From contig NZ_VOIW01000003.1 in NCBI RefSeq assembly GCF_009659625.1, positions 62,001-126,000 of the forward strand: a stretch of DNA of 64,000 bases, in the 5' to 3' direction. The notes under the pieces were generated by a model. The model saw nothing but the letters and a program-made list of their open reading frames with translations. It was not told where the DNA came from and ran no database searches. Made by a program: the position numbers and the translations under genes. Shown piece after piece: positions 1 to 9,629 of the stretch; the first letter of the stretch is position 1, and each line of letters opens with the position of its first letter. The stretch is from Pseudomonas haemolytica (lineage in GTDB: Bacteria > Pseudomonadota > Gammaproteobacteria > Pseudomonadales > Pseudomonadaceae).

Positions 1-307
1 GACGCCCGGCCACAAGTTGCAGGAAGCCCGCCAGCAACAGGATCGGTCCTAGCATCAACATGCCATGCTGGCGCACCAACTCGAACACCAACACCGCCAA
101 ACCCGCCGCCGGACCACTGACTTGCAGCGGCGACCCCGCCAACCAGCCCACCACCAAGCCACCGATGATCCCGGTGATCAGCCCCTTGGCCGGCGGCATG
201 CCGGACGCGATCGCAATCCCCATGCACAGGGGCAGGGCGACCAGAAACACAACCACGGAGGCGAGCAGCTCCCGTGGCAGTACAGCTTTCAATTGAGCAG
301 CACGCAT
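1..307 (-). CDS. SulP family inorganic anion transporter, N-terminal part (truncated by window edge)
   Basis: Reading the minus strand from the ATG at 307 gives about 102 residues (MRAAQLKAVLPREL...) before the window ends. They form the first hydrophobic helices and contain GSPLQVSGPAAGL, the signature of the first SulP half, which typically moves sulfate or bicarbonate across the inner membrane. It lies 85 nt downstream of the carbonic anhydrase on the same strand. That pairing suggests bicarbonate or anion uptake coupled to CO2 hydration, and P. aeruginosa has the same pair (PA0102-PA0103, from memory). Substrate is inferred; the C-terminal STAS region is outside the window. Confidence 0.88.
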   Translation of the reverse strand, partial: MRAAQLKAVLPRELLASVVVFLVALPLCMGIAIASGMPPAKGLITGIIGGLVVGWLAGSPLQVSGPAAGLAVLVFELVRQHGMLMLGPILLLAGFLQLVAGR

Positions 308-392
308 GATGGCTCTCCCGAGGCATTCGCCGGGCACGGCAAAGCCCGGCTGCATCCATGGCAGCCACCGCTTTACCCGGCAGGGAAGTGTT

Positions 393-1121
393 TTAGAAGC
401 GCGCTCTAGGCGTCGCGGATGGGATGGGCTCAGTGCCGTTCAACGGTCTGAATGCCGACTTTTCCGCATCGTAAGCCCGAATTTCACTGGTCTCGATGTT
501 GTAGATCCAGCCATGGATAAACAGATGACCATTGGCCATGCGCGAAGCTACGGAGGGGTGGGTGCGCAGATGCTGCAACTGGGCGATGACGTTTTCTTCG
601 GTCAGTACCTTCATGCTCTCGCCTTCATTGGCGCAGTCGCAGTTGTCATGGACCATGGTCTTGGCGACCTCGGCGTGACGCAGCCATGCCTTGACCGTCG
701 GCATTTTTTCCAGGCTGTCAGGGTTGAGTACTGCACGCATGGCGCCGCAGTCGGAGTGCCCACACACGATAATGTGCTGTACGCCAAGGGCGAGCACTGC
801 GTACTCGATGGCCGTGGAGACACCACCGTTCATCTGGCCATAGGGAGGCACCACGTTACCGACGTTACGGGTCACAAACAGGTCGCCGGGGGAGCTTTGG
901 GTAATCAGCTCAGGCACGATGCGCGAATCGGCACAGGTAATGAACATCGCCCGCGGGCTCTGGGCCGTGGCGAGTTTCTTGAAGAGTTCTTCCTGCTGGG
1001 GGAAGACGTCGTGATGGAAATGCAAAAAGCCGTCAACAATATGCTTCAACGCTGCATCGGCGGACTCCGCCACAGGGGCTGAAGCCGACGCAGCCAACGG
1101 CTGTTTATCCTTGTCACTCAT
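393..1121 (-). CDS. beta-class carbonic anhydrase
   Basis: A 242-residue protein of the beta-carbonic anhydrase family, which interconverts CO2 and bicarbonate with a zinc ion. The zinc and dyad residues are all visible: Cys63-Ala-Asp65-Ser-Arg67, then His122 and Cys125 in CGHSDCGAM. About 25 residues before the conserved fold are low-complexity Ala/Ser, with no clear signal peptide, so a cytoplasmic location is likely. It is the promoter-proximal gene of a probable operon with the SulP transporter that starts 85 nt downstream. The start is the first ATG of the frame, preceded by an AGGA-type ribosome binding site. Confidence 0.93.
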   Translation of the reverse strand: MSDKDKQPLAASASAPVAESADAALKHIVDGFLHFHHDVFPQQEELFKKLATAQSPRAMFITCADSRIVPELITQSSPGDLFVTRNVGNVVPPYGQMNGGVSTAIEYAVLALGVQHIIVCGHSDCGAMRAVLNPDSLEKMPTVKAWLRHAEVAKTMVHDNCDCANEGESMKVLTEENVIAQLQHLRTHPSVASRMANGHLFIHGWIYNIETSEIRAYDAEKSAFRPLNGTEPIPSATPRARF

Positions 1122-1350
1122 GATTCATCCTCTTGATTAATGCAGGGGAGTGTTCAAGTCTGTTCGACGCCGGGAGAGTGGGATAGTTGGAAAAACCCCG
1201 ACAAACCACGGCGCCGACTTATCAGTCACTCGTGGAACAAGGTAACCGCCGAAACTTAACTCAAACTGAATGAACCGCTCTAGATCGCGGGTTTCGGTGA
1301 TGTCAAAACGCGACTATTCCTACAAGTGCTTCGCGGTGTTCCTCTTCAGT

Positions 1351-2409
1351 TTACAGCAATGCCATCTGCCTGCCCGGAGGACAGAACGCCGTGCAATCCA
1401 GGTTGAACCCTTCACGACGGTTCAGCCCCAATCGCTTGATCGCCTTGCTGAAGCGTTGCGCCAGCAGATCAGCAAAAGGCCCCTCACCCCGCATGCGCAC
1501 ACCGAAACGGCTGTCATAGACCTCACCACCGCGTACCTGGCGCACCAGGCTCATGACATGGGCCGCACGCTGCGGGTAATGGGCCGCCAACCACTCCTCG
1601 AACAACGGCGCCACCTCCAACGGCAGGCGCAGCATCATATACGCTGCGCTTTGTGCACCGGCCGCGTGAGCCTCGGCGAGCAGGCTCTCCAGTTCGCTGT
1701 CGTTGATCATCGGAATCATCGGCGAGCACAGCACGCCCACCGGGATACCCGCGTCATGCATCACCCGAATCGCCCGCAGCCGCGCCTTGGGTGCTGCCGT
1801 GCGCGGCTCCAGGATGCGCTTGAGCTCGTCGTCCAGGCTGGTGAGGCTGATCATCACCGCCACCAGGCGCTGGCGGGCCAACTCGGTCAGCAGGTCAAGA
1901 TCGCGCAGGATCAGCGACCCCTTGGTGATGATAGTCACTGGGTGCCGGTAGCGCAGCAGCACTTCCAGGGTTTGCCGAGTGATCCTGTATTCGCGCTCGA
2001 TAGGCTGGTAAGGGTCGGTATTGGAGCCCAGGTTGATCGGCGCGCACACATAGCCAGGCTTCGACAACTGCTGCTCCAGCACATCGGCCGCGTTGCTCTT
2101 GGCGATCAACCTGGTTTCGAAGTCCAGCCCCGGGGACATGTCCCAATAGGCATGGCTGGGCCGCGCATAACAATAGATACACCCATGCTCGCAGCCGCGA
2201 TAAGGGTTGATCGAGCGATCAAAGGGCAAGTCCGGCGAGTTGTTGCGGGTGATGATGGTCTTGGCCGTTTCGATACGTACTTCGGTGCCTTGAGTCTGGG
2301 GCACCTCCTGATACCAGCCGTCGTCCTCCGCCACGCTGACCGTAGGTGCGAACCGATTGTGCAGGTTGGTGGCGGTGCCCCGACCACGGGGCGGCAGCGG
2401 AGTAGACAT
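1351..2409 (-). CDS. Radical SAM protein, PA0069 family (spore photoproduct lyase-like), SOS-linked
   Basis: This 352-residue protein carries a CxxxCxxC iron-sulfur motif (Cys73, Cys77, Cys80 in GCEHGCIYC), the hallmark of radical SAM enzymes. The surrounding sequence (NPYRGCEHGC, then INLGSNTDPYQP) matches the PA0069 family, which is related to spore photoproduct lyase; the substrate is unknown. The ATG at 2409 sits just behind a LexA-type operator, and the P. aeruginosa orthologue is, as I recall, in the LexA regulon, so a role in DNA damage response is inferred. It is monocistronic: the next gene upstream ends 82 nt away on the same strand but is metabolic. Confidence 0.88.
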   Translation of the reverse strand: MSTPLPPRGRGTATNLHNRFAPTVSVAEDDGWYQEVPQTQGTEVRIETAKTIITRNNSPDLPFDRSINPYRGCEHGCIYCYARPSHAYWDMSPGLDFETRLIAKSNAADVLEQQLSKPGYVCAPINLGSNTDPYQPIEREYRITRQTLEVLLRYRHPVTIITKGSLILRDLDLLTELARQRLVAVMISLTSLDDELKRILEPRTAAPKARLRAIRVMHDAGIPVGVLCSPMIPMINDSELESLLAEAHAAGAQSAAYMMLRLPLEVAPLFEEWLAAHYPQRAAHVMSLVRQVRGGEVYDSRFGVRMRGEGPFADLLAQRFSKAIKRLGLNRREGFNLDCTAFCPPGRQMALL

Positions 2410-2414
2410 GAAAA

Positions 2415-2450
2415 CGCCTCGATACTGTTTTTATATACAGTATCGAGGCG
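2415..2450 (-). promoter_or_regulatory. LexA (SOS) operator inside a 36-bp perfect inverted repeat
   Basis: The core CTGTTTTTATATACAG (2425-2440) matches CTG-N10-CAG, the classical LexA box, with ATA/TAT flanks. The symmetry continues outward to give 14-bp perfect arms (2415-2428 and 2437-2450) around an 8-nt AT core. On the minus strand the 3' arm ends in GAGGCG, which is also the ribosome binding site of the radical SAM gene starting at 2409. LexA control is inferred from the sequence; folding of the transcript is a separate possibility. Confidence 0.85.
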
Positions 2451-2490
2451 CAGGGGTTCTGACCAGTGCCGTTTGGCGGTCAGCGAAGGA

Positions 2491-3789
2491 TCAGTGTTTT
2501 TGCGTCACCTGCCCCAGGTCATCCCCCGAGGTGGTGCGCATATCACTTTTGCGCAAGTTCGCCACATCACTGGCATTAACCGGTGCACCTTTGTTGCCCC
2601 AACTGCCACGGATGAAACTGACCACATCCGCCACTTCCTGGTCCGACAGGCGCCACGCGAACGCCGGCATGGTGAAGGTCGACGGCGCCGCATGCGTCGC
2701 CGGCAAGGTGCCGCCGTTCAACACAATGTTGATCAACGACGTGGCATCCGCCGTCTGCAATACCGGGTTGCCCGCCAGCGCCGGGAACACCCGCGTATAG
2801 CCATGGCCATCGGTGCGGTGGCAGGCCGCACAGTTGTCGATATACACCGATGCGCCCGGCTTGCTGTCATCACCTTTCCAGAGCGCCTCGGCTACCTGCT
2901 TGTCGTACTGGTGCGGCTGGTCCTTGGGGTCGACCGCCGGCAGGCTCTTGAGGTAACGAGCGATAGCGGTCAGGTCGTCTTGCGACATGTACTGCATACT
3001 GTGGACAACCACGTCGCTCATACCGCCGAATACCGCGCTGCGGTCACTGCGACCGGTCTTGAGAAACTGCACCAGTTGCTCTTCGCTCCAACTGCCGAGG
3101 CCGTCCTTGTGGTCACCGCGCAGGCTTTTCGCGATCCAGCCTTCCAGCGGTGCACTGCCGGACAGAAAAGCGTTGCCGTCTGTGGCACTCAGGGCTTTTT
3201 CCTGCATGGTCAGGGCGCGAGGCGTATGGCAGGCGCCGCAGTGGCCCAGACCTTCAACCAGATAAGCGCCACGATCGATCACCGGATCAGCAGCGGCTTG
3301 CGCCTGATGTTCCTCGACAGCGGGTGCGAACATCCAGCGCCAAGCCGCCAAAGGCCAACGCATGCTCAACGGCCAGGGTATTTCGCTGTCCTTGTTCTCC
3401 TGGGCGACCGGCTCAACGCCCTTCATGAAATACGCATACAACGCCTGCATATCGCTGTCGCTGACACGCGCGTAAGACGGGTAGGGCATCGCCGGGTAAA
3501 GCGTACTACCGTTCTTGGCGACGCCATGACGCACGGCCTTGTCGAAATCCTCGAAGCTGTAGTCGCCCAGGCCGGTCTTGTCCGGGGTGATGTTGGTGGA
3601 ATAGATCACACCGATGGGCGTTTCCATCGGCAGGCCGCCGGCGAAGGGTTTGCCACCCTTGGCGGTGTGGCAGGCCACGCAGTCACCAGCACGTGCCAGG
3701 TATTCACCTTGTTTGATCAAGTCGGTTTCGGCGGCGCTTACCGAGCAGCTGCTGAAGAGCGCCAGGGAGGCGATAACGAATGCTTTCAT
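2491..3789 (-). CDS. Triheme cytochrome c subunit of a membrane gluconate/alcohol dehydrogenase
   Basis: A 432-residue exported protein with a signal peptide (MKAFVIASLALFSSCSVSA) and three CxxCH heme-binding motifs at about residues 37-41 (CVACH), 184-188 (CGACH) and 320-324 (CAACH). That layout is typical of the cytochrome subunit that passes electrons from a flavin dehydrogenase to ubiquinone in the periplasmic face of the inner membrane. I chose the ATG at 3789 because AAGGAG lies 8 nt before it; an in-frame ATG at 3795 is too close. That ribosome binding site overlaps the stop codon of the flavoprotein gene, indicating translational coupling. Third gene of the operon. Confidence 0.92.
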   Translation of the reverse strand: MKAFVIASLALFSSCSVSAAETDLIKQGEYLARAGDCVACHTAKGGKPFAGGLPMETPIGVIYSTNITPDKTGLGDYSFEDFDKAVRHGVAKNGSTLYPAMPYPSYARVSDSDMQALYAYFMKGVEPVAQENKDSEIPWPLSMRWPLAAWRWMFAPAVEEHQAQAAADPVIDRGAYLVEGLGHCGACHTPRALTMQEKALSATDGNAFLSGSAPLEGWIAKSLRGDHKDGLGSWSEEQLVQFLKTGRSDRSAVFGGMSDVVVHSMQYMSQDDLTAIARYLKSLPAVDPKDQPHQYDKQVAEALWKGDDSKPGASVYIDNCAACHRTDGHGYTRVFPALAGNPVLQTADATSLINIVLNGGTLPATHAAPSTFTMPAFAWRLSDQEVADVVSFIRGSWGNKGAPVNASDVANLRKSDMRTTSGDDLGQVTQKH

Positions 3790-3801
3790 GGTCATCGCTC
3801 C

Positions 3802-5586
3802 TTATGCCTGAACCAGTGGGCCGGGGTTTTTCAGGTATTGCTCGCGGATAGCCCGAGCCGACCAATAGGTCAACGCTGCCACCAGGCCTGTAGGGTTGTA
3901 GCCCAAACCTTGTGGGAAGGCGGACGCACCCGGGACAAACACGTTGTGTACATCCCAGCACTGCAGGTAGCGGTTCAACGCGCTGGTTTTCGGGTCGGTA
4001 CCCATGATCGCGCCACCGTTGAGGTGAGTGGTCTGGTACGAGGCGGTGTTGAAGTGATCACCGACCTTCTTGCCCAGTACGGCGATGGCCTTGGGGTTCA
4101 TGGCTTGGGCGACCTTGCCCATTTTCTCGATCATGAAGCGGTTCATCTTGATGTCGTTTTCTTGCCAGTCGAAGGTCATGCGCAGCAGCGGCAGGCCGTA
4201 GGCATCGCGGTAAACCGGATCCAGATCCAGGTAGTTACTGCGGTAAGACTGATGGGCACCGTGGGCATCCATCGACACCTGATGGGTGTAGTAATCCGCG
4301 GTGGCACGCTTCCAGGCGCTGCCCCAGGCCGGTGTGCCCGGTGGGTTGGAGGTACCGGCGATCGGCCGGCTGCCCGCCTGGTTGACCCACATCGGCGAAC
4401 CACCCACGAACCCGTGAGGGCCATGGTCGAAGTTGTCGGCATTGAAGTCGTCGATGGCCACGCCATTGCCGCCCGCACCGATAAAATTGTTGGTGTGGGT
4501 GTCCTTGTCGAAGAACGCCTTGATGGTGCCCATGTTCTGGTAGGCAAAGTTCCTGCCCACCACGCCCTCATTGGTAATCGGGTCGTAGGGCTTGCCGATG
4601 CCCGACAGCAGCATCAGGCGCACGTTGTGAAACTGGAATGCGCCAAGGATCACCAGGTCTGCCGGCTGCTCGCATTCGCGGCCCTGGGCGTCGATATAGG
4701 TCACGCCGGTGGCTTTTTTCTGGGTGCTGTCCAGGTTGACCTTGAGCACGTGGGAGTTAGGCCGCAGCTCGAAGTTCGGCACCTGGCGCAAGGCCGGCAG
4801 GATGTTCACGTTCGGTGATGCCTTGGAATACATGTAGCACACGTAACCACTGCAGAAACCGCAGAAGTTGCACGGGCCCATCTGCGCCCCGTACGGGTTG
4901 GTGTACGGCCCGGAAGTGTTGGCCGACGGCAGGTTGTAAGGCTTGTAACCCACTTCAGTCGCTGCTTTCTGAAACAGCTGTGCGGAGACAGTATTTTTCT
5001 GCGCCTCCAACGGGAAAGGGTTGGAGCGATCCGGCGCATACGGGTTGCCACCGCGGCCTTCGCCTACCAACTGGCCTTTGACGGTCCAGGCCTGGCCGGA
5101 GGTGCCGAAGACTTTTTCCGCATAGTCGAAAAACGGCTCGAGCTCTTCATAGCTGACGCCGAAATCCTGGATGGTCATGTCCTTGGGAATGAAGTTCTTG
5201 CCGTAGCGTTCTTCGTAATGGCTGCGCATGCGCAGTTCGATGGGGTCGACGCGAAAGTGTACGCCCGACCAGTGCAGGCCCGCGCCCCCTACGCCATTAC
5301 CCGGCAGAAATGCACCCAACTGACGGTTGGGCAGGGCAACATCATTCACGCTATGGCGAATGGTCACCGTCTCTTTGGAGATGTCTTGGAACAGCTTCTT
5401 ACGAACGCTGTAGGTCAATTCGTCGATGACCTGGGGATAGTTGCCGTCCGGATAAGTGTCCTGCATCGGGCCGCGCTCCAGCGCTACCACGTTGAGGCCC
5501 GCTTCCGTCAGCTCCTTGGCCATGATCGCGCCGGTCCAGCCGAAGCCCACAATCACCGCATCCACTTTCTTCATGATGGTCGCCAC
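3802..5586 (-). CDS. GMC-family flavoprotein, large subunit of gluconate 2-dehydrogenase-type complex
   Basis: A protein of about 594 residues that oxidises a sugar acid or polyol with FAD in the periplasm. The N terminus has the dinucleotide fold (VIVGFGWTGAIMAKEL) and the C terminus has the GMC oxidoreductase block with catalytic His/Asn region (THLNGGAIMGTD ... GYNPTGLVAAL). The start is taken as GTG at 5586, 8 nt after GAGAGG; the ATG at 5574 is the alternative. It begins before or just at the end of the upstream small subunit (stop at 5589), so the two are coupled. Gluconate is the usual substrate of this three-subunit type, but sorbitol or 2-ketogluconate cannot be excluded. Confidence 0.9.
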   Translation of the reverse strand: MATIMKKVDAVIVGFGWTGAIMAKELTEAGLNVVALERGPMQDTYPDGNYPQVIDELTYSVRKKLFQDISKETVTIRHSVNDVALPNRQLGAFLPGNGVGGAGLHWSGVHFRVDPIELRMRSHYEERYGKNFIPKDMTIQDFGVSYEELEPFFDYAEKVFGTSGQAWTVKGQLVGEGRGGNPYAPDRSNPFPLEAQKNTVSAQLFQKAATEVGYKPYNLPSANTSGPYTNPYGAQMGPCNFCGFCSGYVCYMYSKASPNVNILPALRQVPNFELRPNSHVLKVNLDSTQKKATGVTYIDAQGRECEQPADLVILGAFQFHNVRLMLLSGIGKPYDPITNEGVVGRNFAYQNMGTIKAFFDKDTHTNNFIGAGGNGVAIDDFNADNFDHGPHGFVGGSPMWVNQAGSRPIAGTSNPPGTPAWGSAWKRATADYYTHQVSMDAHGAHQSYRSNYLDLDPVYRDAYGLPLLRMTFDWQENDIKMNRFMIEKMGKVAQAMNPKAIAVLGKKVGDHFNTASYQTTHLNGGAIMGTDPKTSALNRYLQCWDVHNVFVPGASAFPQGLGYNPTGLVAALTYWSARAIREQYLKNPGPLVQA

Positions 5587-5588
5587 GT

Positions 5589-6341
5589 TTATGCCCTCTC
5601 GCCGCGAATGGAAACAGCCGGGAAGGGGTATTGCTCGTTGCGTTCCACCCAATCCATAAAGTCGGCGCGGGCGCCGGGGAAGCCGATCATGGTCCAGCCG
5701 ACCATGCCTTTATTGCCGCCGTGGATCGGGTCGCAGAAGAAGCCTTCCTTGGTATTTTGCAGCAGGAGGTTAAAGAACATCTTTGGCGGTACAGCGTCGA
5801 AATGCGCCGTCACTTCGCTGCCGCCAGCCTCAAGGCGCCGCAGCATATCGTCTCGGGTAGCGCTGTCTTGCGCGGCAAAAACCTTACCGTTGAACGCCTT
5901 CGACCACGCATCCGTAGCGGCAATACCCAAGCGATAGATCTCCTTGGGCACTAATTTGCTCTGCCAGCCCATCTCTGGCGGCGCATCGGCATTGAACGGG
6001 CCTTGCATAAACCATAGGGCGCCGCTGGCATACGGTGTGTTCATCTGACGGTCGATGTATTCCGGCGCGCCAGCCTCCAAGGCGCCTGGGCCCTGGGCAT
6101 CAGCGGGAATCAAGCGCTCGACAGCAGCGTTGATAAACGCCCATTCCTCGGCTGTGAAGTAGCTGGGCTCGTACGCTTTTTCACTCCCCGCAGGTTTGGC
6201 CGGCGCCGCCTGGGCTGGCTCCGGCGTGGCCATCAGCATCGAACCGCCAAGGCCGGTACTGGCAACCGTGACCACCGGGATCAAGGTCAAGGATTTGCGT
6301 AGAAAGTCACGCCGGGGGTTGTCTTGATCTTGATCAGACAT
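5589..6341 (-). CDS. Gluconate 2-dehydrogenase subunit 3 (Tat-exported small subunit)
   Basis: A 250-residue protein with a twin-arginine signal at residues 10-16 (RRDFLRK) followed by a hydrophobic stretch ending near AQAAPAKPA. It belongs to the gluconate dehydrogenase gamma-subunit family, the small partner that carries the flavoprotein through the Tat system as a folded pair. It is the first gene of the operon (gamma, flavoprotein, cytochrome c), separated by a 276-bp intergenic region from the divergent phosphatase gene. The flavoprotein itself has no export signal, which fits piggy-back export. Confidence 0.92.
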   Translation of the reverse strand: MSDQDQDNPRRDFLRKSLTLIPVVTVASTGLGGSMLMATPEPAQAAPAKPAGSEKAYEPSYFTAEEWAFINAAVERLIPADAQGPGALEAGAPEYIDRQMNTPYASGALWFMQGPFNADAPPEMGWQSKLVPKEIYRLGIAATDAWSKAFNGKVFAAQDSATRDDMLRRLEAGGSEVTAHFDAVPPKMFFNLLLQNTKEGFFCDPIHGGNKGMVGWTMIGFPGARADFMDWVERNEQYPFPAVSIRGERA

Positions 6342-6617
6342 GGGTACACCTCATCATGTGGTCACGGGTTTATCCGCCGCTTCTGGGAGCAACGTGAAGG
6401 TTTACCAAGCAATGGGATCCAAAAACATAGAACACACTGGCAAACAATAGTTACAAATGATAGCAGGCTAAGAATTGAGAAGACTCGATCCAGTGACAAA
6501 AAACACCGGATCAGATTGGGTGAATCACGATTCTTTGACGAAGACCTCACGCGGCATTGACCCTGCGTAAGTGAATCTGCGCCCCATCAGCCACTTCCTT
6601 ATGCGGTCACAGAGTTC

Positions 6618-7274
6618 ATGTTCAACACACGATTACTGCCCATTCTCGGCCTGGCGGTCATGACCCTGTTCAACACACTTCAAGCCCAAGCCGATGACGC
6701 TGGCTCGATCCGCTCGCCGGAATGGGCCCAACCGGTAGGTGACCAATACAACCTGCATCAAATGACGCCCACGCTTTATCGCAGCGCGTTACCGGACAGG
6801 GGTGCGCTGCCGGTATTGGAAAAGCTCAAGATCGGTACGGTAATCAACTTTCTGCCGGAATCTGATTCGGCGTGGCTCAAGTCATCTGATATCAAACAGG
6901 TGCAGTTGAGTTATCGCACCAACCATGTCGACGACTCCGACGTGCTGGCGGCGCTTAGGGCGATCCAGGCAGCAGAAGCCGACGGGCCAGTGCTGATGCA
7001 CTGCAAGCATGGCGCCGACCGCACCGGGCTGATGGCCGCGATGTATCGGGTGGTGATTCAGGGATGGAGCAAGGAAGACGCACTGAACGAGATGACGCTG
7101 GGCGGTTTCGGCAGCAGTAACGGCTTCAAGGATGGGGTCCGCTACATGATGAAGGCGGATATCGACAAAATACGCGCCGCTTTGGCCAATGGCGATTGCA
7201 GCACCAGTGCATTCGCGTTGTGCTCAATGAAGGACTGGGTGACCACGACGGGCAAGGAAGAGAAAAAACTGTAG
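6618..7274 (+). CDS. Exported dual-specificity/tyrosine phosphatase-like protein
   Basis: A 218-residue protein with a signal peptide (roughly residues 1-25, ending LQAQA) and the cysteine phosphatase loop HCKHGADRTG, in which Cys129 and Arg135 form CX5R. The family includes small bacterial tyrosine or inositide phosphatases that act in the periplasm or are secreted. It is divergent from the dehydrogenase operon and ends in front of a REP-type hairpin, so it is probably transcribed alone. The substrate cannot be deduced. Two Cys near the C terminus (in GDCSTS and ALCSMK) could form a disulfide. Confidence 0.83.
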   Translation: MFNTRLLPILGLAVMTLFNTLQAQADDAGSIRSPEWAQPVGDQYNLHQMTPTLYRSALPDRGALPVLEKLKIGTVINFLPESDSAWLKSSDIKQVQLSYRTNHVDDSDVLAALRAIQAAEADGPVLMHCKHGADRTGLMAAMYRVVIQGWSKEDALNEMTLGGFGSSNGFKDGVRYMMKADIDKIRAALANGDCSTSAFALCSMKDWVTTTGKEEKKL

Positions 7275-7294
7275 GAGCGAGTTCGCCCCTACAG
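7269..7294. repeat. Solitary REP-like hairpin between convergent genes
   Basis: CTGTAGG (7269-7275) pairs with CCTACAG (7288-7294), and GGAGCGAGTTCGCCCC lies between. This is the GTAGGAGC-type REP core seen elsewhere in this window. It overlaps the end of the phosphatase gene and sits between convergent genes, where it may also act in 3' end formation. Confidence 0.6.
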
Positions 7295-7305
7295 TGAGTC
7301 AGGTT

Positions 7306-7581
7306 TTAGTCTTTTTTGAGCTTCGGATTAGGAAAGAACTGCACCGCCTGCACCTTTGGATCCGCCGGCGCTTTCAATGCCGATGTATTAACCCGCGTGC
7401 CCAATTCCTTGGGCACCGAAAGCCCCTGATCATTGAGCGTATCGGTATAGCCGCAGGCCACACATTCGCGGTGCGGCACGTTGTCTTCGGTCCACATCTT
7501 CAACTTGTCCGGCTCGCTGCACGCCGGGCAGACCGCCCCGGCGATAAATTGCTTTTTGGTAATCACAGACCCTTCGCTCAT
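7306..7581 (-). CDS. YheV family putative metal-binding protein
   Basis: A 91-residue protein with two CxxC pairs (CPAC near residue 18 and CVAC near residue 40), which suggests a zinc ribbon. It matches the YheV family of small proteins encoded next to prlC in gammaproteobacteria. Its ATG overlaps the prlC stop codon by 4 nt, so the two are translationally coupled. The molecular role is not known. A lysine-rich tail (PNPKLKKD) follows the zinc domain. Confidence 0.85.
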   Translation of the reverse strand: MSEGSVITKKQFIAGAVCPACSEPDKLKMWTEDNVPHRECVACGYTDTLNDQGLSVPKELGTRVNTSALKAPADPKVQAVQFFPNPKLKKD

Positions 7582-9629
7582 GCTGCCGCGTCCTCACTCA
7601 GGCCGCTGTGGCGCAAGAGTGCGTCAATCGACGGCGCCCGTCCGCGGAAGTCGACGAACAGCACCATCGGCGCCTGGGAGCCCCCACGGGCCAGGATCGC
7701 TTCACGGAACGCTCGGCCCGTCTGGGCATTGAGCACGCCGTCTTCTTCGAACTTGGAGAACGCGTCAGCCGACAGCACTTCAGCCCACTTGTAGCTGTAG
7801 TAACCCGCCGCATAACCACCGGCGAAAATGTGCGCAAAGCTGTTGGGGAAGCGGTTGTAGGCCGGCGGGCGCATGACCGAAACTTCATCGCGCACGCCCT
7901 CGAGCACCTGCGCCACGCTGCGACCATCGCCATGGGTGGCGTGCAGCTCAAAGTCGAACAGCGAGAACTCCAGTTGACGCACCATCATCAGGCCGGACTG
8001 GAAGTTTTTCGCCGCGAGCATTTTTTCCAGCAGGTCCTGAGGCAATGGCTCGCCGGTTTCATAGTGGCCGGAGATCAGCGCCAGGCCTTCGGGCTCCCAG
8101 CACCAGTTCTCCATGAACTGACTAGGCAGTTCCACCGCATCCCATGCCACGCCGTTGATACCGGATACGCCGGCATGTTCAACGCGGGTCAGCAGGTGAT
8201 GCAGGCCGTGGCCGAATTCGTGGAACAGAGTGGTGACTTCATCGTGGGTCAGCAGCGCAGGCTTGCCGCTGTCGGCCGGAGTGAAATTGCACACCAGGTT
8301 GGCGACAGGGCTTTGCAGCACGCCATCGACGGTGCGGCGGCGGTCACGGGCACCGTCCATCCAGGCACCGCCGCGCTTGTTGGCGCGGGCGTACAGGTCG
8401 AAGAAGAAGCGCCCGACGTGCTCGCCGTTTTCCTTGATTTCAAACAGGCGAACATCCGGGTGCCAGGTGTCGAAGCCTTTCTGTTCGGCGATCTCGATGC
8501 CATACAGGCGCTGCACAATGGCAAACAGACCGCCCAGCACCTTGTCGATGGGAAAGTAGGCACGCAGGGCTTCCTGGGACACGCTGTAGCGCTGTTCGCG
8601 CAGTTTTTCGCCGTAGAAACCACTGTCCCAGCTCTGCAGGTCGGCGCAGCCTTGTTCGGCGGCGTAGGCCTTGAGCTGTTGCAGATCCTGGGCGGCAAAC
8701 GGCTTGCTGCGCTTGGCCAGGTCACGCAGGAAGCTGAGCACCTGGTCGCTGGACTCGGCCATTTTGGTCGCCAGGCTCAGCTCGGAGAACGATGCGTAAC
8801 CCAACAACCGGGCCAGTTCCTGACGCAGGTCGAGGATCTGTTCCATCACCGGGCCGTTATCGTTCTGGCCGGCGTTCGGGCCTTGGTCCGACGCACGGGT
8901 GCAATAGGCGGCGTAAACCTCTTCACGCAGGGAACGGTCCTGGGCGTAGGTCATTACCGCGTAGTAGCTAGGAAACTCCAGGGTAATCAGCCAGCCATCA
9001 AGGTCTTTGGCCTGGGCCGCGGCGGCCATTTGCGCTTTGGCCGAGTCGGTCAGGCCGGCGAGGGTGACTTCATCGGTGACATGCTTGGTCCACGCCTGGG
9101 TGGCGTCCAGCAACTGGTTGGAGAACTTGCTGCCCAGCTCGGAAAGCTTGCTCTGCACTTCGGCATAGCGCTTTTGCTGCTCCGGCGGCAGATCGATGCC
9201 CGACAGACGGAAGTCGCGCAGGGCGTGTTCCAGAATGGTTTTTTGCGCCACATCGAAACCGCCAGCTTCGGGGCTGTTGGCCAGGGCTTCAAAGGCCTGG
9301 AACAGTTCACGGTTCTGGCCCATCTCGGTTGAGTAGGCACTCAATGCTGGCAGGCAAGCCTCGTAGGCTTCGCGCAGCTCGGCGCTGTTGCACACGGCAT
9401 TGAGGTGGCTGACAGGGCTCCAGGCAGCCCCGAGGCGATCATTCAGCTCATCCATGGCGAGGACCAGACCGGCCCATGTCGGATTTTTACCCTGGCTTTG
9501 CAGGATGTCTGCGATAGCCACACGGTTGTCGGCGAGGATCTGTTCGATGGCCGGCTGGACGTGCTCGGCACGGATCGCCGAGAACGGCGGCAGGTCGTAG
9601 GACTGCAAAAGAGGGTTGTTCGCGCTCAC
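7578..9629 (-). CDS. prlC: Oligopeptidase A (M3 metallopeptidase)
   Basis: A cytoplasmic zinc peptidase of 683 residues that degrades oligopeptides and free signal peptides. The active site HEFGH, followed by the Glu-containing NGVAWDAVELPSQF segment, is the M3 signature. The GTG at 9629 is chosen as start because AAGGTG lies shortly before it and the length then matches the family (E. coli PrlC is 680 residues, from memory); the open frame extends 22 codons further upstream without a family match. It is followed by the coupled YheV-like gene. The divergent gamma-carbonic anhydrase gene starts about 100 nt away. Confidence 0.95.
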   Translation of the reverse strand: MSANNPLLQSYDLPPFSAIRAEHVQPAIEQILADNRVAIADILQSQGKNPTWAGLVLAMDELNDRLGAAWSPVSHLNAVCNSAELREAYEACLPALSAYSTEMGQNRELFQAFEALANSPEAGGFDVAQKTILEHALRDFRLSGIDLPPEQQKRYAEVQSKLSELGSKFSNQLLDATQAWTKHVTDEVTLAGLTDSAKAQMAAAAQAKDLDGWLITLEFPSYYAVMTYAQDRSLREEVYAAYCTRASDQGPNAGQNDNGPVMEQILDLRQELARLLGYASFSELSLATKMAESSDQVLSFLRDLAKRSKPFAAQDLQQLKAYAAEQGCADLQSWDSGFYGEKLREQRYSVSQEALRAYFPIDKVLGGLFAIVQRLYGIEIAEQKGFDTWHPDVRLFEIKENGEHVGRFFFDLYARANKRGGAWMDGARDRRRTVDGVLQSPVANLVCNFTPADSGKPALLTHDEVTTLFHEFGHGLHHLLTRVEHAGVSGINGVAWDAVELPSQFMENWCWEPEGLALISGHYETGEPLPQDLLEKMLAAKNFQSGLMMVRQLEFSLFDFELHATHGDGRSVAQVLEGVRDEVSVMRPPAYNRFPNSFAHIFAGGYAAGYYSYKWAEVLSADAFSKFEEDGVLNAQTGRAFREAILARGGSQAPMVLFVDFRGRAPSIDALLRHSGLSEDAAA

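Follow-up and report, generated by a model that had tools for sequence, protein, structure and literature searches.

The window analyzed here is a 64,000-nt stretch of the Pseudomonas haemolytica genome (contig NZ_VOIW01000003.1, positions 62,001 to 126,000). The locus of interest within it carries a gene for a PA0069-family radical SAM protein, preceded on the same strand by a cytochrome c gene (Table 1). Behind the latter lie genes for a GMC oxidoreductase and gluconate 2-dehydrogenase subunit 3, an upstream gene group whose order and spacing suggest one operon. PA0069 is a gene that we take to be a member of the P. aeruginosa LexA regulon. At 97% protein identity, P. paralactis and P. palleroniana are the nearest named relatives, by which the genome falls in the P. 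fluorescens group. The short gap between the radical SAM and cytochrome c genes holds a LexA box at the center of a long palindrome.

Table 1. Genes and sequence features at the radical SAM locus, in window coordinates
Feature	Position	Strand	Basis	Remark
PA0069-family radical SAM protein gene	1351..2409	-	NCBIfam NF033668, 495 bits (cut-off 360); Pfam Radical_SAM	SOS gene under control
TTTTC tract	2410..2414	-	Sequence and terminator scan	Terminator-like tail directly 3' of stem
3' arm (in gene sense)	2415..2428	-	Inverted-repeat search and sequence	Carries Shine-Dalgarno GAGG at 2417-2420
LexA box CTGTATATAAAAACAG, CTGT-N8-ACAG	2425..2440 (contig 64425-64440)	-	Pattern match	Palindrome center
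8-nt loop	2429..2436	-	Inverted-repeat search	Predicted transcription start at ~2428-2432
5' arm	2437..2450	-	Inverted-repeat search	
Predicted -10, TACTGT	2437..2442	-	Conservation; weak sigma-70 consensus match	Overlaps 5' half of LexA box
Predicted -35 core, CTGG	2463..2466	-	Conserved columns -26..-23 from box	
Cytochrome c gene	2491..3795	-	Pfam Cytochrom_C	Upstream, co-directional; stop codon 40 nt from palindrome
GMC oxidoreductase gene	3802..5652	-		Behind cytochrome c; upstream gene group 3802..6341
Gluconate 2-dehydrogenase subunit 3 gene	5589..6341	-		Upstream gene group 3802..6341

Positions 2415 to 2450 form a perfect inverted repeat of 36 bp, in which two 14-nt arms (100% complementary) flank an 8-nt loop. 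Read along the - strand, the order is arm, loop, arm, TTTTC, and the ATG at 2409, with the sequence GAGGCG (2415 to 2420) inside the 3' arm. Folded as RNA, the repeat gives a hairpin of 14 pairs at -25 kcal/mol (z = -9.3), a value equaled by none of 200 shuffled sequences, and it thus has the stable, G+C-containing stem-loop of intrinsic terminators. The exact arm sequence occurs only once in the genome, with four further places at one mismatch, and no Rfam model matched positions 1 to 8000 of the window at E ≤ 1.

The LexA (SOS) operator of gammaproteobacteria has the consensus CTGT-N8-ACAG, and the usual SOS box comprises 20 bases with a T-A flank. Judged from its sequence, the motif at the palindrome center, which has an AT-rich spacer and lies upstream of a gene, is a LexA box, a predicted operator. 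Symmetry beyond the box was scored at the outer positions, defined as positions 3 to 10 outside CTGT-N8-ACAG, such that the T-A flank of the 20-base box was not counted. All eight outer positions are paired at this site. The bare motif occurs at 74 sites in the genome, and the comparison of outer pairs covered the seven other sites of a stricter LexA-like pattern, two of which belong to recA and lexA in the same genome; at these seven, 0 to 3 of the 8 positions were complementary. Control boxes from 30 recA loci (30 boxes) and 30 lexA loci (60 boxes) reached at most 4/8. Together, these comparisons show only that an SOS box needs no arms. The preliminary description of this DNA had reported a perfect 36-bp palindrome with 14-bp arms around a LexA box, symmetry extending farther than in an ordinary box, and a Shine-Dalgarno (SD) sequence in the outer arm, and all three observations hold.

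We compared the region upstream of the radical SAM gene across relatives. The gene is present in 190 of the 199 genus genomes. A total of 230 loci were read (30 automatic, 120 at listed places, and 80 named), the genus part being drawn from among the matches listed; locus numbers below carry the prefix L. Thirty loci had no box in the scanned stretch, namely, 29 relatives at 51 to 63% identity and L053, where the match begins at residue 74. Apart from L053, all genus loci read have a box with no more than one mismatch ahead of the gene. Merging of identical upstream sequences left 192 regions with a box, of which the 173 at ≥65% identity, in 91 clusters, were counted. One cluster holds 35 of these regions. 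Nearly all of the regions are from Pseudomonas, with a few others (e.g., Aidingimonas and Stutzerimonas). The remaining 19, one of them from the genus (L229), were left out of the counts. Upstream genes were called with a codon-usage score trained on the radical SAM gene family, and some calls may be wrong; context was called for 172 of the 173 regions, with L214 excluded because its upstream DNA was too short.

Across the orthologues, the box is nearly constant, while the outer arms are variable yet covarying. At least 7 of the 8 outer positions paired in 48 of the 173 distinct regions, compared with 1.5 expected when the 3' flank was swapped in from another cluster. All 48 such stems lay behind a co-directional upstream gene (48/102), versus none of 70 with a divergent one, and they were found in 43 of 83 co-directional regions within 120 nt of that gene and in 5 of 19 farther away. 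When each cluster was represented once per group, a scheme in which a cluster may count in two groups, the contrast was 13/55 versus 0/44 (Fisher P = 2.3e-4). Cluster means differed between near co-directional regions and all others (rank test P = 5.7e-5), as they did in a coarser test that asked for a cluster mean of at least 6.5 in near co-directional regions versus the rest (Fisher P = 0.0085). Among the 19 regions left out of the counts, at least 7/8 pairs were seen in 1 of 9 co-directional cases (L061), 0 of 8 divergent cases, and 0 of 2 without a called neighbor. The dependence of the stem on a co-directional neighbor points to read-through RNA, rather than the gene's own mRNA, as the carrier of the hairpin.

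The compensating changes that the preliminary description had proposed looking for in orthologues are present. In 84 distinct co-directional 36-mers, covariation between the arms was 0.613, versus 0.239 ± 0.019 in shuffled alignments (0/500 as high) and at most 0.207 in slid versions, where the shuffles leave relatedness among the sequences in place; 72.8% of cells paired, compared with 49.5% after shuffling. Two of five covariation measures in these rows were not above shuffles (both-side changes, 495/500; further pair types, 103/500). The corresponding values for 69 divergent 36-mers (69 of 70, with L018 left out as its box was mis-centered) were 0.221 versus 0.194 ± 0.017 (28/500), up to 0.211 in slid versions, and 46.4% versus 43.7% of cells paired. 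A total of 54 of the 102 co-directional regions fell below 7/8, including 31 with a gap of ≤60 nt, 9 of which reached 6/8. When bulges were allowed, the co-directional regions below 7/8 still gave better folds than the same regions with their 5' flanks swapped (P = 2e-6), while divergent regions barely did so (P = 0.05). The cases without a strong stem imply that any shielding from read-through is not obligatory or is achieved otherwise. Among stem representatives, 85%/92% retained the T+16/A+17 flank of the box; the values were 83%/79% for weak co-directional and 48%/36% for divergent ones. The promoter-side TA of the box was kept in all groups.

Unrelated arm sequences are found behind different genes, encoding cytochrome c, an M3 peptidase, a DUF2387 protein, and a 3-dmu-9_3-mt protein; MdoG adds a further case from outside the set that was counted. 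Where one arm family occurs in both contexts, pairing is weaker in the divergent one. In family A, the two divergent members (L019 and L126) have 5 and 5 of 8 pairs, versus a mean of 7.3 in 37 co-directional members, and in family B the mean is 5.5 in four divergent versus 7.5 in four co-directional members. On a rough gene tree, which mixes short and full-length genes, all stem-bearing leaves are co-directional, with 24 changes of the stem (compared with a mean of 42.5 after shuffling) and 22 of the context. Parsimony on this tree draws 12 gains and 12 losses of the stem, some of them improbable, and the numbers are only indicative. Single losses are drawn for L015, L018, L019, and L138 (all divergent) and for L010, L021, L028, L030, and L185 (all co-directional); none is drawn for L126, L118, L153, or L161. 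The hairpin seems to have evolved repeatedly, against accidental switching on by a neighbor's transcript.

Further palindromes were seen in this survey. In the P. sichuanensis group (L043, ~2947 to 2990; L045 and L188), a palindrome with 13 to 14 outer pairs is bordered by A and T tracts; the start reads ATC-ATG, and an SD-like motif was not detected. Further inverted repeats are visible by eye in this group between the upstream stop and the box. Beyond Pseudomonas, in Modicisalibacter xianhensis (L061, ~2934 to 2969), the LexA box of the orthologous gene lies in a palindrome with 10 outer pairs (8/8 of those counted) behind a co-directional MdoG gene.

Conservation also offers a view of where the SOS mRNA may begin. 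Within the 50 nt upstream of the box, the conserved elements are TACTGT, CTGG at -26 to -23, and GG at -30/-29, with the TGG block located 17 to 18 nt before TACTGT. Of the stem representatives, 12 of 13 carry TACTGT, as do 39 of 42 among the weak co-directional and 43 of 44 among the divergent ones, and the partly conserved TGG lies within one base of the -35 place in 8/13, 21/42, and 35/44, respectively. We read these elements as a -10 and a -35 with a spacer of 17 to 18 nt, which predicts a transcription start in the loop. A plain consensus scan of positions 1200 to 4200 returned no sigma-70-like site. If the predicted start is right, the hairpin would be absent from the SOS mRNA and present in RNA coming from the cytochrome c gene. 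The fold of an RNA that begins in the loop is unremarkable (z = -0.32).

In many orthologues, the predicted -35 is immediately preceded by a conserved GCCNAACGGC-like block (2468 to 2477, - strand), with a G at -37 and the GG at -30/-29. The dyad symmetry of this block is weak (1.73 of 4 pairs, compared with 1.45 after shuffling), and an activator may bind there. Elsewhere in the genome, the block occurs at 42 places with at most one mismatch, compared with 32 for the reversed control, and no clear regulon emerged from these.

The explanation that we favor, to which we assign a probability of about two in three, is that the palindrome acts as an insulator superimposed on the LexA operator, which terminates read-through RNA, hides the SD sequence of that RNA, or does both, so that the gene would obey LexA and not its neighbor. 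One 36-bp palindrome would then comprise the promoter, the LexA operator, and a hairpin specific to read-through. Polymerase initiating at the SOS promoter would start in the loop and produce an mRNA without the 5' arm, in which the ribosome site is free of the hairpin. Polymerase arriving from the co-directional upstream gene would transcribe both arms, and the resulting hairpin would keep the SOS gene unexpressed through intrinsic termination at TTTTC, burial of the SD sequence, or both. A silent stress gene could sit behind a busy gene, since the repressor's palindrome, once extended, would police leakage with no extra DNA. The presence, absence, or weakening of the stem according to neighbor direction would amount to a natural experiment in how regulation is shielded from gene order.

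Termination and occlusion both fit the stems and are mutually compatible. Past the 10-nt arm, 34 of 48 stems have a run of at least three T's, as do 8 of 54 weak co-directional regions and 6 of 70 divergent regions. Most of these tracts belong to three arm families, and the count falls to 23 of 48 stems when the full stem is taken instead of the 10-nt arm. The T-tract is absent from L049, L180, L183, L202, and L209. An SD-like motif was detected in 41 of the 48 stem cases, inside the 3' arm in 38, and was not found in 7. It lies outside the stem in L049, L173, and L063, while L180, L183, L202, and L209 have it in the arm but lack the T-tract; L049 has neither feature. In the 40 stem cases in which the SD was found for this calculation, its bases were paired at a mean of 0.97 in folds of the read-through RNA. 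For the gene's predicted own RNA the value is already 0.75, and the difference between the two is modest. What the stems have in common, if the predicted start is right, is a hairpin that read-through RNA alone could form.

The hairpin might instead serve the upstream gene, as its terminator or a stabilizer of its 3' end, with selection acting on the upstream mRNA and the SOS box overlapped for compactness. The gap between the upstream stop codon and the box is 35 to 51 nt in 38 of the 48 stem cases, which together with the T-tract enrichment would suit this reading. The palindrome is itself listed as terminator-like, among sites that were no commoner near the locus than expected by chance (4 found; 2.7 expected). 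We nevertheless regard service to the upstream gene as an unlikely sole explanation, because several stems without a T-tract still hold the SD sequence and the P. sichuanensis stem is perfect despite the other inverted repeats (by eye) already upstream of it. One structure could fill both roles, and in that case the two readings are hard to tell apart.

The preliminary description had proposed that, with a transcription start upstream of the repeat, the SOS mRNA would conceal the site at which ribosomes bind it, adding translational control to LexA repression. The position of the SD sequence in the 3' arm, the strength of the hairpin, and the near-complete pairing of the SD bases in the longer RNA are all compatible with such a scheme, and the plain scan, in finding no consensus promoter, leaves room for an unseen upstream start. 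The conserved columns, in contrast, put the predicted start in the loop, and a start there is an outcome that the preliminary description had itself named as speaking against its proposal; an mRNA beginning there would lack the 5' arm and would be unlikely to hide its ribosome site. A gene that hid its own ribosome site should also be indifferent to the orientation of the gene upstream, yet the stem never accompanies a divergent neighbor. With the predicted start and the stem's dependence on neighbor direction both against it, this scheme was dropped as the main reading, and we now consider it quite improbable.

Outer symmetry centered exactly on the LexA dyad would also be expected if LexA, or some other regulator that binds as a dimer, recognized a longer stretch of DNA. 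This is a very improbable account, which we set aside because the arms differ between lineages with pairing kept, are absent from the recA and lexA boxes, and depend on the direction of the upstream gene. Least credible is the view that the symmetry arose by chance or was merely inherited from a common ancestor, with no selection for it. Although related sequences inflate the counts (a single cluster supplies a fifth of them, 35/173), distinct arms stand behind different genes, no shuffle of 500 reached the observed covariation, the cluster-level contrast persists, and about a dozen gains fall on the rough tree with every stem-bearing leaf co-directional.

The favored insulator reading draws together elements that are already known, from LexA boxes and intrinsic terminators to the shielding of genes against read-through. 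In its core box and its place over a predicted promoter, the site resembles other gammaproteobacterial LexA operators and differs from them in that its symmetry reaches 36 bp. It resembles an intrinsic (Rho-independent) terminator in having a strong stem-loop 40 nt past the upstream stop codon and, in the P. haemolytica lineage, a short run of T's that may act as a terminator tail. It differs in that a putative repressor operator and the start predicted for the next gene both fall at the hairpin tip and that the T-tract is missing in several lineages. In IS10/Tn10, a fold-back structure shields the transposase mRNA from outside promoters, with an inverted repeat that spans the promoter and hides the ribosome site. 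The palindrome described here would likewise place both arms in read-through RNA only, and its GAGG lies in the 3' arm, where a ribosome site would be hidden. Unlike the transposase gene of IS10/Tn10, the gene concerned is an ordinary, predicted SOS gene of the chromosome; a putative LexA operator forms the tip of its hairpin, and the presence of a stem varies with gene neighborhood.

A terminator that shields genes from upstream read-through is also described for Tn916, where T1 acts as an insulator against transcription entering from an upstream host promoter (PMC11658703). In contrast to the present case, T1 belongs to a mobile element, is relieved by an antiterminator, and is not described as part of an operator in the available portion of that paper. 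Among papers on overlaps of LexA sites and terminators, the nearest in theme, as far as its accessible part indicates, concerns read-through at a terminator beside lexA in Staphylococcus aureus (PMC8745188). No description of an operator that doubles as the tip of such a hairpin was found in the open-licence literature, most of which was judged at listing level.

More tentatively, symmetric operators may in general be seeds that are pre-adapted to become insulators: behind a co-directional gene, selection could lengthen the dyad outward into a hairpin of the read-through RNA, as may have happened several times here, and it would be lost when the neighbor turns. A single dyad would then serve at two levels, with the repressor on or off at the DNA and read-through blocked in the RNA. 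We think this conjecture, which might extend to many regulons, somewhat doubtful at present.

Some minor observations concern the radical SAM gene itself. In the available portion of one paper, PA0069 occurs in a strain name, tetO-PA0069 (PMC7485682). The accessible part of another states that SOS control of the photolyase gene splB was not observed in gammaproteobacteria (PMC3323433), and we do not imply that splB is identical with the PA0069 family. A 1,182-aa open frame on the + strand (1270 to 4818), antisense to the radical SAM and cytochrome c genes and to part of the GMC oxidoreductase gene, is probably an artifact of high G+C content. LexA-like boxes also precede the same gene in Halomonadaceae, Marinobacterium, and others.
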